Virus record (IMG/VR): IMGVR_UViG_3300030104_001845
Coordinates: 18,328-54,481 of that record
Strand: one strand, 5' to 3'
DNA: 36,154 nt
From: a virus
Below the pieces are notes generated by a model, which was not told the origin of the DNA, searched no databases, and saw nothing but the letters and a program-made list of their open reading frames with translations. The translations under genes and the position numbers were made by a program. Each line of letters begins with the position of its first letter. Position 1 is the stretch's first letter. Positions 3,859 to 9,293 of the stretch are shown one piece after another.

Positions 3859-5514
3859 TTACATATACTCCCACATAAATGATCGATCTCCATACTCATC
3901 TGCTTTATTCCATCGATCCCCCTCTGCGTCTACAAAAGTGTCGTCATCCAACCCATCTATCATAAAACCAAATGGAGCCATGTCTTGCTCAATTTGATTT
4001 TTTTGTTCTTCGTATAACCTCTTTCTCACATCTTGATCAGTAAGTTCTTTAAAGTAATCGTTCTGAACCAACCATGCATATATGACTAAACACATAGCAA
4101 GGTCATCATTAGATCCCTCTTCTGCCTCGAATGAATTATTTTTTTGTATGAATGTCGTTAGTTCTGATATGATTTCATAATCCTTAAAGATAATCTTGTC
4201 AGATTCAATCAGTGTTTTTAAATTTAAAGATCCTACCTTTTTGACAGTCTTAGACATCTTGACTCCCATTTGAGTTTTCTTACCAGAGAATCCTTGACCA
4301 ATAACTTGCCCTGCCCTTCCTCTCATTGATGCCATGAGAAGATTATCGTATTCAAGATCATAGTGAATAATTGATGCCACCTGATCACCAATATCATTTA
4401 CCTCACATAATATAAATGCTTTGTTATATTTTGTTGCTACCTCATATATGATACTAGGAAACAACATCGGTTTGATTTGATTATCCCTATACTTAGCAAC
4501 AATCTTATGTGGGAATGTTGTAATATCAAAGACTATGAAGGCTGAGTAATCCTTCTCTACACCACGAGCAACGTCAACTGTGATTAGATAATCGTGTTTA
4601 TATTGTGCATTTTCATAGACATCAAATCCAGCATTTCTAATCTGTGGTTCTTCATATACAAGATTTCTTAACTTACTTGGTGCTATCAATGTATCAACAG
4701 ATCCTAAGAACTCACACTCAAACTCAACCTTAAACTGTTGTTCTGATGTGTTTGCAATTGTTTGTTCTCTCCAGACTTCATCTCTACCTGGCACTTCAGA
4801 CCAGTGAACATCAGTTGGTTTATATTCATTCTTTCCTCTCTCCGCATCATGCCACAATCGGTAGAAGTGATTCATACCTCGTGGTGTAGATACGATGATT
4901 ACCTTAGTATTTTGACCAGAACTAATAGTAGGATAAACAGAGGCAAAAAATTGATCAGCAATGTGATTTGGAATGAATGCAAACTCATCCAAAAAGATAA
5001 CATTGTATGACCCGCCTCGTACAGCACTTGCAGAAGTTGAAGCAGCCAAGATTTTAGAACCATTTTCTAACTCCAGTGATCCTTTGTTCCATGCAAGAAT
5101 ACCCTGTTGCATCCATTTAGGTAAATTCTCATATGCTAATTGTAATCTACCAAGTAGATCTCTTGCAGTAGATGCTTTATTTGCAAGAACAGCAATATTA
5201 ACATTATCATTAAAAAGTGCATAATGCAATAAGTAAGATACGCAGGTGGTTGATTTACCAGTCTGTCTTGGCATCTTACATATATTGAATCTTTCTTCGT
5301 GAAAGTTTCTAATTAGTTTCTCTTGGAAAGGGTATAAGTCAAACGGAACTAAGCCCTCATCAAGAGAGACGATCTTAATATATTTCTTAGCAAAGTAAAC
5401 AGGATCATCTTTACATTTAACAAACTCTAAGATTTGTTCTTGTGTAAATTCAATTTCGGTATTCGCTTTCTTTAGATTCGGATTACCGAGATAAATGTCG
5501 TCAACGTAAGGCAT
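3859..5514 (-). CDS. gp17: Large terminase subunit gp17 (packaging ATPase and nuclease)
   Basis: This 551-residue protein (T4 gp17 is 610) is the DNA packaging motor. The N-terminal ATPase shows Walker A PRQTGKST (residues 82-89), Walker B VIFLDE (172-177; D176 and the catalytic E177) and the coupling motif STPRG (209-213). The C-terminal RNase H-fold nuclease shows its three acidic positions: D314 in ITVDVARG, E371 in ILCEVND, and D470/D471 in EGSNDDLAMCLVI, matching T4 D401, E458 and D542. All key residues are intact. The enzyme docks on gp20, translocates DNA with ATP and makes headful cuts, with gp16 as regulator. No Shine-Dalgarno is visible. The upstream 42-aa ORF stops 3 bases before this ATG, so translational coupling is likely. 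No late-promoter motif lies directly upstream. Confidence 0.97.
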   Translation of the reverse strand: MPYVDDIYLGNPNLKKANTEIEFTQEQILEFVKCKDDPVYFAKKYIKIVSLDEGLVPFDLYPFQEKLIRNFHEERFNICKMPRQTGKSTTCVSYLLHYALFNDNVNIAVLANKASTARDLLGRLQLAYENLPKWMQQGILAWNKGSLELENGSKILAASTSASAVRGGSYNVIFLDEFAFIPNHIADQFFASVYPTISSGQNTKVIIVSTPRGMNHFYRLWHDAERGKNEYKPTDVHWSEVPGRDEVWREQTIANTSEQQFKVEFECEFLGSVDTLIAPSKLRNLVYEEPQIRNAGFDVYENAQYKHDYLITVDVARGVEKDYSAFIVFDITTFPHKIVAKYRDNQIKPMLFPSIIYEVATKYNKAFILCEVNDIGDQVASIIHYDLEYDNLLMASMRGRAGQVIGQGFSGKKTQMGVKMSKTVKKVGSLNLKTLIESDKIIFKDYEIISELTTFIQKNNSFEAEEGSNDDLAMCLVIYAWLVQNDYFKELTDQDVRKRLYEEQKNQIEQDMAPFGFMIDGLDDDTFVDAEGDRWNKADEYGDRSFMWEYM

Positions 5515-5517
5515 AAT

Positions 5518-5646
5518 TTAAATCATGAATTTTTTGTCGTGTTCGATTGTTCTTTGCTGTAGTTCTATTGTTTTTTCTAGTCTTTGTATTTTCTTTTTTA
5601 AATCTTTGCTATCCTCTCGTCTGGAGGATCGGTTCTCCTGAGTCAT
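5518..5646 (-). CDS. Small 42-aa charged coiled-coil protein upstream of gp17
   Basis: I found this ORF by reading the apparent 94-base gap between the 125-aa gene and gp17. It starts at the ATG at 5646-5644, inside the 3' end of the 125-aa gene (38-base overlap, different frame), and ends with TAA three bases before gp17. The product begins MTQENRSSRRED and continues as a highly charged helix containing DLKKKIQRLEKTIELQQRTI. Leu16, Ile20, Leu23, Ile27 and Ile34 fit a heptad pattern, suggesting a short dimeric or oligomeric coiled coil. There is no strong Shine-Dalgarno (only CGGA nearby), so coupling to the 125-aa gene is likely. The open frame fills the gap exactly. Function is unknown; position suggests a packaging or head role. 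A non-coding spacer remains possible. Confidence 0.6.
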   Translation of the reverse strand: MTQENRSSRREDSKDLKKKIQRLEKTIELQQRTIEHDKKFMI

Positions 5647-5986
5647 AATCCGAAACTTTGTAATTCACGATTTTAGAGCCAGGATACACTTTGCTCACTT
5701 GATCCTGTACTTCTTTTCGTGATGGTAATACCACAGTGGGAAAGAACATTTTTATCATGTATGTTCCTCCTCGCCATCGTAAAATAACTTTTAGTATGTT
5801 TCCTACTTTGTTATAATCTGGTAAACGTGTTGCTTCGTATTGAATATTTGATTTTGGTGATTTGATTGGTTCGGGTTTAATAATATCAACTGCCTCAACT
5901 TCCCTCCATTTAATGTCTCCAGTGGCATCTTCGACCTTAATGCCACAATTTTCTAATGCACCTATTTGTGCTGGAGACCAACCCAT
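5609..5986 (-). CDS. Uncharacterised 125-aa protein between the terminase genes
   Basis: I do not recognise a characterised family, although similar small proteins occur in marine T4-like phages. The sequence is soluble and mixed alpha/beta with no signal peptide or membrane span. It opens MGWSPAQIGALENCGIKVED, has a basic patch ILRWRGGTYMIKMFFP (about 68-83), and continues PSRKEVQDQVSKVYPGSKIV (about 88-107), a helix followed by a Tyr-Pro-Gly turn. A CTAAATA motif that shares bases with the upstream gene's stop lies 22 bases before the ATG, so this gene probably heads a late unit with the 42-aa ORF and gp17. There is no strong Shine-Dalgarno. Co-transcription with the large terminase suggests a packaging, head or neck role, but this is inference. 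Confidence 0.85.
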   Translation of the reverse strand: MGWSPAQIGALENCGIKVEDATGDIKWREVEAVDIIKPEPIKSPKSNIQYEATRLPDYNKVGNILKVILRWRGGTYMIKMFFPTVVLPSRKEVQDQVSKVYPGSKIVNYKVSDYDSGEPILQTRG

Positions 5987-6671: not shown

Positions 6672-6959
6672 TTAACCTCCGTTTCCACCTCCTCCATTAC
6701 CGCCACCGCCATTACCACCGCCACCGTTTCCACCACCGTTTCCACCGTTGCCGTTACCACCATTTCCATTTCCATTTCCATTACCGTTCCCGTTGCCAGA
6801 GTCTGATCTGTTGTCTGGTGCTAGTCTGCCACCATATCCTATACGATATCCGTTAGGTATTTTTTTGCATTTCTTTTCGTCGAAACAGTAATACTGGCCT
6901 GGTGGGCATCTCTTAGTTGCTGCTTCTTCTATGAATTTGTTGAAGTCTTTCATGTTCAT
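6672..6959 (-). CDS. Small Cys/Gly-rich protein with a prohead-targeting-like N-terminus
   Basis: This 95-aa protein has three parts. The N-terminus (MNMKDFNKFIEEA) resembles the T4 capsid-targeting peptide MKTYQEFIAEA of internal proteins, including an I-x-E site like those cut by the gp21 prohead protease. Next is a compact Cys segment (about 18-40) with Cys18, Cys25 and Cys31 in CPPGQYYCFDEKKC, then PNGYRIGYGG. From residue 55 to the end it is almost only Gly and Asn. I recall similar Cys-then-Gly/Asn proteins from marine T4-like phages, without known function. The first ATG overlaps the 627-aa gene's stop (ATGA). The second ATG (6953) gives MKDFNKFIEEA and has AAGAG at better spacing, so I favour it. 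Internal head protein is a hypothesis; a structural adhesive tail is an alternative. Confidence 0.85.
   Translation of the reverse strand: MNMKDFNKFIEEAATKRCPPGQYYCFDEKKCKKIPNGYRIGYGGRLAPDNRSDSGNGNGNGNGNGNGGNGNGGNGGGNGGGGNGGGGNGGGGNGG
6675..6797 (-). repeat. Low-complexity Gly/Asn codon repeat
   Basis: This stretch encodes residues 55-95 of the 95-aa protein: first alternating GN dipeptides, then NGG and NGGGG units, the last repeated about four times. On the plus strand it appears as runs of ACC, GCC, TCC and ATT triplets. Such tracts change length easily by slippage, so length variation between relatives is expected. The local base composition is richer in G+C than its surroundings because of glycine codons. 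Confidence 0.9.
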
Positions 6960-8839
6960 ACTCTTGTTAAAACTTTGGATAATTTGAAAACTGTGGATAA
7001 AGAAGTGGTCGGAGTTCCTCTCACTCTTACATTACCAGAACTTATATCAGCGTCAAACGTGGCAAGGGCTATGCCAGTTCGCACAGTTCCGAATTCCATT
7101 AGATGAACTGTTGATCCATCGTGTAATACATTTAATGTGGTAACGTGATAAGTTGATCCTTGTGTGATTTGTATTTGATATTGGGCAGATCGGTATGTTG
7201 TTGCTGAAAATGTATCTATAGTAGATGCACTTGTTGTAGTAGTAGTTTCAGTAGCTGCTTCAAACGAGATAACTGGAGTTATACTTCCAGCACCAAGTTC
7301 GATTCCACTTCTTGCAGTCACAACTCCGATAGAGTCTACAAATGTGACATCATCGTAAGTAACTGTTCCTGCACAGGATATATTTCCTGTAACATCTAAA
7401 TTACCTGTAACTACATTTATAAGAGCTGTGCTTGCAATACCTACAAATTTAGTTCCGTTTCCATCTGCATTGTAAACTAATATCTTATTATCACCTGTTG
7501 CAATATCAAAATCAACGTCTGCAAGATCTGGAACGAATCCAGCACCACCACCACCTATGACAGCAAGTTGCTGTTGTGTTCTATTGATGAACAACCTATA
7601 GTGATCTGCTAATGATTTTAAATTAGGAAACTGTTTATCTAATGGAGCCAGAGGATCGTCACCAGTTCCAACTGATTGTGTATTTTCTGGTGGTTCATTT
7701 AAAAGACCTTCTTGTATATCTTCTACTTCAGTTTTTACTAGTTTCTGTTTTTGTCTTATATCTTCAACAAGAACTTTAAGAGAATCTAAACCTTTTGTAA
7801 ACTCTTCTCTTATTTTCTTAATATCTTCTTCATAATATTTGACTTTAGGTAGATTACTTATCTCTTCTGTAAGCGATTCAAAGTATCCAGCATATAAATC
7901 TTTTGTATCTTCATTAGTTTGATTAAACTTCTTAACCTGTTCTTCAACATTGAGTTTCAACAGATTATATTTGCTCATAATCTGTTTCTTTAATAAGTTA
8001 TCATCATTCTTGAATGCATGTTTAATATCAAGAATGCCTACAGCAGCAGTTCTTAGTTCCTCATATATTTTTTTCTTTGTCTCTGTAAAGTTTTCTGTTA
8101 GTTCTTTTATCTCTGTTTTAGATTCAAATCTCTTTACCTCAAGATCCTCAGATAGTTGTCTAACTTCCTCATTTATTTTATTTCTAACTGAATCTACATT
8201 GTCTTTAGCCTTGATGAAATCATCGTCAATGACACTGAACTGTTTTCCTATCCATGAAAAATCAGGAACCTCATTTACCTCGTTTACCCACTTAGGGAAT
8301 ACTGGAATAGATTCTTTTAATAGAACAATTTCATCTCTTATAGATGCTAGATCACCTTCATAGTGACGAATTTCTGGAAGACTCTTGAGACTACTTTCAA
8401 GACGTTCAATTTGAACATCATAATACCGTATCTCTGGTATCTCTGCAGCGTTTGTACGTACTTCTTCCTTTAGTTCATCAATCAAACCACATATGGCAGA
8501 TATCTCATCATCATATGTTACCTGTTCAGGAACTTCAGGAATGCTTTCTTTAACTTCCTCTACATAAGCAGTTAGTTCTTCTAACTCCTTTTCATAGTAT
8601 TTTATTTGTGGTATCTCAGGTATATCTTCTCTAACGTCGTTTATTAATCTTATTACTTCTGTTAAATCTGGCTCGTATGAAGATGGTGCAAGATCAGGTT
8701 TTTCCTCCTCTTCTTCTTCTTTTTCTTTTTCTTCCTCGATGAACTCATCCACGGAGGGTAATTTTTCTTCTGTTATAAGGTCATCTACAGACGGTAATTC
8801 TGGATAGAATTCATCTATAGACGGTAGTTTTTCCGCCAT
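6956..8839 (-). CDS. 627-aa coiled-coil fibre-like structural protein (whisker/fibritin-like candidate)
   Basis: This elongated multi-repeat protein is not in T4 at this position but is familiar from marine T4-like phages. Residues 5-33 hold three copies of LPS(I/V)D(E/D)(F/L), followed by an acidic linker (34-47). Residues 73-160 hold four repeats of the form (I/L)PE(I/V)xxxxYY or a variant, with a fifth (LPKVKYY) at 330-336. Residues 200-380 are heptad-rich coiled coil. A Gly hinge (429-434) leads to a C-terminal beta fibre domain (about 440-627) containing LDVTGNISCAGTVTYDDVTF, SIGVVTARSGIELG and a tip domain starting at FSATTYRSAQYQIQI that I recognise from marine phage fibres. The design resembles a trimeric fibre. 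The neighbourhood (gp13-gp16 upstream) and the absence of a wac homologue in the window make a neck whisker plausible, but this is inference. No close Shine-Dalgarno. Confidence 0.85.
   Translation of the reverse strand: MAEKLPSIDEFYPELPSVDDLITEEKLPSVDEFIEEEKEKEEEEEEKPDLAPSSYEPDLTEVIRLINDVREDIPEIPQIKYYEKELEELTAYVEEVKESIPEVPEQVTYDDEISAICGLIDELKEEVRTNAAEIPEIRYYDVQIERLESSLKSLPEIRHYEGDLASIRDEIVLLKESIPVFPKWVNEVNEVPDFSWIGKQFSVIDDDFIKAKDNVDSVRNKINEEVRQLSEDLEVKRFESKTEIKELTENFTETKKKIYEELRTAAVGILDIKHAFKNDDNLLKKQIMSKYNLLKLNVEEQVKKFNQTNEDTKDLYAGYFESLTEEISNLPKVKYYEEDIKKIREEFTKGLDSLKVLVEDIRQKQKLVKTEVEDIQEGLLNEPPENTQSVGTGDDPLAPLDKQFPNLKSLADHYRLFINRTQQQLAVIGGGGAGFVPDLADVDFDIATGDNKILVYNADGNGTKFVGIASTALINVVTGNLDVTGNISCAGTVTYDDVTFVDSIGVVTARSGIELGAGSITPVISFEAATETTTTTSASTIDTFSATTYRSAQYQIQITQGSTYHVTTLNVLHDGSTVHLMEFGTVRTGIALATFDADISSGNVRVRGTPTTSLSTVFKLSKVLTRV
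8360..8623 (-). repeat. (I/L)PExxxYY repeats in the 627-aa protein
   Basis: Four related motifs occur at residues 73-82 (IPEIPQIKYY), 100-109 (IPEVPEQVTY), 134-140 (IPEIRYY) and 154-160 (LPEIRHY), each followed by an acidic helix. A fifth, LPKVKYYEED, lies at about 330-339. Spacing is about 20-35 residues. They look like proline breaks that segment a coiled-coil stalk. Confidence 0.75.
8741..8827 (-). repeat. Triple LPS(I/V)D(E/D)(F/L) N-terminal motif
   Basis: Residues 5-33 of the 627-aa protein contain LPSIDEF, LPSVDDL and LPSVDEF, spaced 10 and 12 residues apart and separated by acidic residues. Repeated short linear motifs at the extreme N-terminus of a fibre are a natural docking site for the virion. 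Confidence 0.8.
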
Positions 8840-8879: not shown

Positions 8880-9293
8880 TTATTTATCTTCTTTTTTAGT
8901 CTGAGCTTTTAGTAGTTTAGATAATTCAGATGTTGACCCTACAAACAATGCATTATTGACTGTTGATGGGCCTTTTTGTTTCTCTTCTTCATTTACATCT
9001 TTTAGTTTCTTTTGAAGATCCATCAATTTATCAGTCGCATCAGCAACGTTTTTAATTAATTGGCCTGCAACTTCATATGCTCTTGGCATCTCACTTTCTT
9101 GAGCAAGTTCAAGAATACCGTTGATAGCTTCTTGACCTTTTTCTATTATACTATAAAGATTGCCACGAGTGTATTCGTAATCCTTACTGATATGATCAGG
9201 ATTTTGTTTTTCTTTTTTCTGAACCCTCTCAACTTCTGCAGGAACAATACTTGTTTCTACATTGAAAGCATCATCTAATCCGTCGGTTTTCAT
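8880..9293 (-). CDS. gp16: Small terminase subunit gp16
   Basis: This 137-residue protein (T4 gp16 is 164) is the DNA-recognition and regulatory partner of gp17. In T4 it forms an oligomeric ring that stimulates the gp17 ATPase and controls cutting at packaging initiation. The central region (about 40-100) is predicted helical, with YEYTRGNLYSIIEKGQEAI matching the T4 helix after YGVVRRNM, and SEMPRAYEVAGQLIKNVADA matching SPRHMEVFATLMGQM. The C-terminal NNALFVGSTSELSKLL corresponds to T4 NATVFMGSPTELMDEI. The ATG overlaps the gp15 stop (ATGA), so the two are translationally coupled; GGAT lies upstream at a suitable distance. Unlike in T4, gp17 is not adjacent: five small to mid-size genes intervene. 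Confidence 0.93.
   Translation of the reverse strand: MKTDGLDDAFNVETSIVPAEVERVQKKEKQNPDHISKDYEYTRGNLYSIIEKGQEAINGILELAQESEMPRAYEVAGQLIKNVADATDKLMDLQKKLKDVNEEEKQKGPSTVNNALFVGSTSELSKLLKAQTKKEDK
8881..8887 (-). promoter_or_regulatory. T4-type late promoter motif (ATAAATA) for the 627-aa gene unit
   Basis: The minus strand reads ATAAATAA at the end of gp16. The last two bases plus one A are the gp16 stop codon. It ends 41 bases before the ATG of the 627-aa gene and probably serves that gene plus the 95-aa and 214-aa genes. Confidence 0.55.

Follow-up and report, generated by a model that had tools for sequence, protein, structure and literature searches.

We consider it probable, with fair assurance, that the first 10 residues of a small Cys/Gly-rich protein of a T4-like cyanophage form a capsid-targeting sequence (CTS) of the kind carried by the internal proteins (IPs) of T4, that this tag is removed by the gp21 protease, and that the 83-residue cargo remains in the head and is probably ejected with the DNA. 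The gene lies in a 36,154-nt stretch of DNA, hereafter the window, which is part of the 54,481-base record IMGVR_UViG_3300030104_001845 (IMG/VR); the analysis also covered the other 18 kb of that record. Judged by its genes, the window is a fragment of a marine T4-like cyanophage; unlike T4, the phage resembles those of marine picocyanobacteria, as its gp17 illustrates (Table 1). By analogy with T4, the protein would be expressed late, and its peptide, a predicted short helix with aromatic residues at positions 4 and 7, would bind the gp22 prohead core and thereby bring the protein into the prohead. The phage gp21 protease would cut after E10 (I-E-E|A), leaving the basic Cys module and Gly/Asn tail in the DNA-filled head, and, as with the T4 internal proteins, the mature protein would probably accompany the genome into the host. 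We infer core binding, cutting, head location and ejection from T4, and likewise infer any function in the host, where the basic Cys module could possibly bind DNA or act just after entry. A targeting role of this type had been proposed in the preliminary description of the sequence, and comparison supports it well, through reuse of the tag on a SAM lyase of the same phage and through position-specific conservation.

The gene, its start codon and its peptide

The Cys/Gly gene is placed on the minus strand in the gp16-gp17 interval, and the nearby terminase small subunit gene bears out its earlier assignment to a late head/tail operon. The open reading frame encodes MNMKDFNKFIEEAATKRCPPGQYYCFDEKKCKKIPNGYRIGYGGRLAPDNRSDSG followed by the Gly/Asn tail; the predicted mature form has 83 residues and a pI of 9.4 (charge computation). 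In a low-confidence structure model (mean pLDDT 56, too weak for a fold search), residues 3-12 form a helix, short strands lie around the Cys residues and the tail is disordered.

Two in-frame ATG codons could open the gene. The Shine-Dalgarno-like AAGAG stands 7 nt ahead of the second and only 1 nt ahead of the first, as had been pointed out in favour of the second, which is likely the start because the upstream in-frame ATG is absent in 43 of 56 distinct homologue starts; the first ATG was ruled out as the start on the ground that most homologues lack it. The AAGAG spacing and the homologue starts together make MKDFNKFIEEA the most likely beginning of the protein; this peptide is indeed encoded from the second ATG.

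Table 1. Positions of the features discussed; those without a sequence name refer to the window.
Feature	Position	Strand	Basis or remark
gp17, terminase large subunit	3859..5514	minus	80-83% identity to gp17 of Synechococcus and Prochlorococcus phages
Neighbour gene, free-standing copy of another S-SCSM1_29-family module	5609..5986	minus	46% identity, 72 aa, to S-SCSM1_29
Cys/Gly protein ORF	6672-6959	minus	Start MNMKDFNKFIEEAATKRCPPGQYYC; ORF listing
Gene of the small cargo protein (93 aa), comprising tag, basic module with 3 Cys and Gly/Asn tail	6672..6953	minus	ORF, homologues
I-E-E|A, predicted site of prohead protease cutting (after E10)	6921..6932	minus	Match to T4 gp21 rule L/I-x-E
Capsid-targeting-like peptide MKDFNKFIEE|A (second ATG, first 11 codons)	6921..6953	minus	Sequence, column conservation
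AAGAG, Shine-Dalgarno-like, 7 nt before second ATG	6961..6965	minus	Sequence
gp16, terminase small subunit	8880..9293	minus	PHROG 445, E 1.7e-56
SAM lyase gene	L005:842-1339 = record C1:842-1339 (outside window)	minus	PF23780, E 5.5e-19
Multi-module proteins with motif excess near joints	L086:3995-5548; L003:5274-8258; L004:7632-9629; L401:8050-9522		Mostly between gp16 and gp17

The likeness of this peptide to the T4 tag MKTYQEFIAEA, noted previously, amounts to 6 identical residues of 11 (M1, K2, F7, I8, E10 and A11), with F for Y at position 4 (IPII and IPIII starts taken from AF158101). The first 10 residues of T4 IPIII suffice for targeting, experiments assign residues 4 and 7 to targeting and residues 8 and 10 to processing, and gp21 cuts after L/I-x-E (review of Black's work, PMC9026906). 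At these key positions the Cys/Gly protein has F4, F7, I8 and E10, followed by Ala; it shares with IPII, IPIII (MKTYQEFIAE|A) and IPI the peptide length, the aromatics at 4 and 7, the hydrophobic residue at 8, E at 10 and the small residue past the cut, and its tag falls in the 10-19 residue range of T4-type propeptides. The resemblance extends to a small basic cargo, the gp21/gp22/gp23 system and the use of one tag on unrelated cargoes; the cargo sequences, in contrast, are unrelated, the T4 IP genes lie beside lysozyme and tRNA genes rather than in the gp16-gp17 interval, and packaging is here predicted from sequence. The record encodes gp21 (PF03420, E 3e-36), gp22 (PF25623, E 7e-81) and gp23 (PF07068), the last carrying L-M-E|A at the expected place. 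A tryptophan-halogenase-like gene (PF04820, E 2.7e-30; L005:12027-13151, minus) directly follows gp23 in the same record. In T4 itself, gene 61.1 (AF158101 18966-19130, minus), which encodes a hypothetical 54-aa protein, also has a capsid-targeting-like start, MKTFKEFIKED.

Searches with the Cys/Gly protein returned no Pfam family for its body, no PDB sequence relative and no T4 match in the phage search; the only PHROG was 30733, where function is unassigned. Membership of the T4 IP family by the mature part was rejected, as homology to IPI, IPII or IPIII was not found in the phage, Pfam and PDB searches. By sequence, the protein would work like an IP with a cargo that is not an IP by descent.

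Conservation of the peptide and its absence from large proteins

Homologues of the Cys/Gly protein were collected in three IMG/VR scans. Among 52 non-redundant free-standing homologues, F7 and I/M8 are kept in every sequence, F4 in 48 (L in the rest), E10 in 50 and A11 in 49, and the codons of F4, F7, I8 and E10 change synonymously; seven residues are found at position 3, with drift at 5 and 6 as well. The positions that matter in T4 are therefore the ones that are held, which answers the call for a conservation check made in the preliminary description. The two homologues without E10 (MKNFKDFMESTD and MKSFKDFMESTD) keep FME|S one residue earlier.

A peptide-blind scan (A6), with a query built on the Cys module alone, found the tag on 25/25 distinct small stand-alone Cys proteins and on 0/17 distinct proteins led by the Cys module (Fisher p 4e-12); the 17 mostly start M-A-K-K-C and are longer multi-module chains or are ended by contig ends. 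The peptide is thus a detachable element tied to standing alone, and the idea that the Cys module needs it was ruled out by this search. The earlier concern that homologues might lack the I-x-E site receives a divided answer: in free-standing proteins the site stands (E10 in 50/52, FME|S in the other two), but the whole peptide is missing where the module leads a large protein.

When the Cys module lies behind other modules, it usually follows an internal copy of the peptide or another E-[ASG] joint, and in fused homologues similar internal stretches stand just before the module (DMKDFTSFMEASKTC, TFREFVELSEAKKC). On this account the peptide might do no targeting and simply be a linker or the helix with which the Cys domain begins. 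We regard this as very unlikely, however, given the 17 distinct leading modules entirely without the peptide, the variable spacer between the peptide and the first Cys (FIDEGKKC, FITEAKKC, FIEEAATKRC, FMESTDPVGKKC) and the occurrence of the same peptide before unrelated domains. In P-TIM68 (L002:19164-20285), the Cys module forms the C-terminal end of a fusion protein starting MMKSFIDFSEN, and an in-frame internal ATG in this ORF opens MKNFTSFMEASKTC; two tag-like peptides thus occur in one ORF.

The invariable tag of the stand-alone form, with its E|[AST/G] site (25/25), also bears on the proposal that the Cys/Gly protein belongs to the tail, the neck or the outside of the virion and travels with the adjacent fibre-like gene. 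This proposal draws on the 4-nt overlap of the ORF with the upstream fibre-like gene (6956-8839) and on the occurrence of the Cys module in large multi-module virion proteins; against it, besides the tag, we know of no T4 tail protein that is a gp21 substrate, and we rate it as marginally less probable still than the helix or linker. The multi-module proteins encoded between gp16 and gp17 (S-SCSM1_29 and S-SSM7_236; PHROG 727/3477/30733, DUF6321) contain the same Cys module, but, unlike the Cys/Gly protein, they lack an N-terminal tag and carry many modules per chain, with x-E|[ASGD] motifs near several module joints. In eight multi-module proteins, the motif [ILVM]xE[ASGD] was observed 35 times against 14.9 expected (Poisson p 2e-4 after the genome-wide 1.2x excess). 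The Syn9_114 multi-module protein contains no such motif, and because of this the reading of these proteins as polyproteins that gp21 may cut stays a lead. The product of the neighbour gene at 5609-5986 (minus) has a weakly similar stand-alone relative, S-SCSM1_30, which itself starts MKTFKQFMSES.

The same tag on unrelated proteins

A search of the same phage for further genes with the peptide, as the preliminary description had suggested, was successful: the 54-kb record encodes a SAM lyase, starting MKTFQEFMQESSLSR, with the tag MKTFQEFMQE|S and a body without similarity to the Cys/Gly body. The same phage would accordingly use one tag for at least one further, unrelated cargo. Profile and fold searches both place this enzyme in the phage SAM lyase family (T3, Svi3-3; PF23780), the T3 and Svi3-3 enzymes being the best, although weak, matches of its model in the PDB fold search (E 2.9e-3 and 6e-3), and it keeps an invariant Glu (E81). 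In 55 non-redundant homologues of this lyase, F7 is found in all, F/Y4 in 53 and E/D10 in 54. Subgroups with inserts (MKTYKQFIEDIQE|S, MKTFKEFCSQLDE|S) keep I/L-x-E|S further on (FIEDIQE|S, LDE|S), and T4 IPI resembles them in having its cut site further on (MKTFKEFTSTTTPVSTITE|A; ITE|A); by this comparison of sequences, the targeting and cutting elements move apart and both stay. T3 SAM lyase is made early, inside the cell. Unlike the T3 enzyme, the SAM lyase of the record bears a tag that suggests carriage into the host with the DNA; packaging would make the lyase a counter-restriction enzyme that arrives together with the DNA.

A third tagged family is the NMNAT/cytidylyltransferase (T4-GC 190), which starts MKSFLQFLKE|A or similarly and in which F7, L8 and E10 are invariant (37/37 sequences); the bodies of the Cys/Gly protein, the SAM lyase and the NMNAT are mutually unrelated. 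We counted matches to a strict N-terminal pattern, [any][K/R]x[F/Y]xxF[ILMVF]xE, and took the expected counts from internal positions of the same proteins. The 54-kb record has 2 N-terminal matches against 0.003 expected, and eight complete Kyanoviridae genomes have 9 against 0.035; the p-values overstate independence because 6 of these 9 matches are one orthologous family (NMNAT). Counted by protein family, about half a dozen unrelated families are tagged in the eight genomes and the record. T4 has two N-terminal matches, IPII and IPIII, and no N-terminal match to the strict motif was found in pelagiphage HTVC008M or podovirus P-SSP7. A chance match was ruled out by the N-terminal enrichment together with the codon-level conservation.

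Virion proteomes and delivery with the DNA

Virion mass spectrometry (MS) supports the tag through relatives in other families, namely SAM lyases and nucleotidyltransferases, and whole-virion MS does not tell head from tail; no virion proteome came to light for this phage or for one that encodes the stand-alone Cys protein. In purified S-CREM2 virions, the SAM lyase gp6 was detected with 19 unique peptides, together with gp154, gp14, gp13, gp136 and gp12 (PMC10665884, Table 3). The gp6 N-terminus (MKDFDSFLEE...SLEE|S) is very like the Cys/Gly tag; the cytidylyltransferase gp154 starts MKNFSSFLTEA, the kinase gp14 VKRFDAFLTEE, gp13 MKDLHSFLTEQ and gp136 MQTFSMFFSED, and gp12, annotated as Cas9 (L400:7704-10313, minus), has a tag-like LRFASFMAEA from near residue 17. 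When scored by a matrix for which three families from other genomes (Cys, SAM lyase and T4) served as training set, virion proteins take ranks 1-3 and 6 of the top 9 places in two S-CREM2 stretches (143 genes; p 0.005 and 0.0012); gp6 is homologous to one of the training families, unlike the other high-ranked virion proteins.

The virion proteome of S-SCSM1 has also been determined by MS (PMC9602691). We took the GenBank 'virion protein' labels of this phage as the MS result (48 labels against 45 reported proteins, with the terminases unlabelled); the NMNAT S-SCSM1_91 (MKSFLQFLKEA) is labelled, and S-SCSM1_30 is not. S-SCSM1_29, the sole MS-supported relative of the Cys module, is labelled as well; it lacks the tag, so it is no proof of head location for the module. 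In S-SM1, the T4-GC 190 protein was detected in virions (PMC3037559), and it starts MKKFSAFLNEA. The cyanophage virion NMNATs (T4-GC 190; S-SCSM1_91 and S-CREM2_gp154) thus resemble the Cys/Gly protein in their start, MKxFxxFLxEA, but they are large enzymes with dissimilar bodies; their presence in virions has been reported with no loading mechanism given (PMC9602691, PMC10665884, PMC3037559).

The remaining tagged cargoes are clearly enzymes, and they stay in the virion; this weighs against the view that the tag targets the Cys/Gly protein to the core and is cut, with the protein acting in head assembly, like gp67/gp68 or in the partial scaffold role of IPIII, and then largely disappearing before or in the course of maturation instead of being injected. 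The Cys module likewise has no conserved further L/I-x-E site past the single predicted cut. In favour of this view, the gene lies beside packaging genes, and in T4, IPIII contributes to head morphogenesis and the core proteins undergo degradation (PMC9026906); we think an assembly role unlikely, if somewhat less so than the linker and tail proposals.

Carriage of the Cys/Gly cargo in the head would not be an isolated case, as the comparisons suggest that infected cells receive a set of tagged cargo proteins from cyanophages. We lean towards a broader reading, held less firmly than that of the Cys/Gly protein itself, in which marine T4-like cyanophages have in common with T4 a general N-terminal loading code by which varied proteins enter the head, to be delivered along with the DNA. 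The cargo would include an NAD/nucleotidyl-transferase, a SAM lyase (likely for counter-restriction), a kinase, a Cas9-annotated protein and small Cys/Gly proteins; the list of tagged cargo could be read from genomes, and the code would explain enzymes recurring in virion proteomics. A readable tag would permit sequence-based prediction of the proteins that enter the host with the first DNA, among them a SAM lyase whose action would precede all phage gene expression. The T4 CTS is a known kind of system, and its use by cyanophage cargo appears to be new as far as the open-access literature searched shows, in which we found no paper linking capsid-targeting sequences to cyanophage cargo, the one hit being a T4 review; the newly linked cargo includes enzymes that recur in virions with their route unexplained.

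The virion proteins of S-CREM2 offer one further observation: the gp12 segment past the tag-like stretch (MKAERLGLVSDGHGSYMDPNTNKIVARTVNGEL) resembles the segment past the tag in NMNAT (KKLNLKSDGHGGWYDSRGEFVAKTEGGKL).
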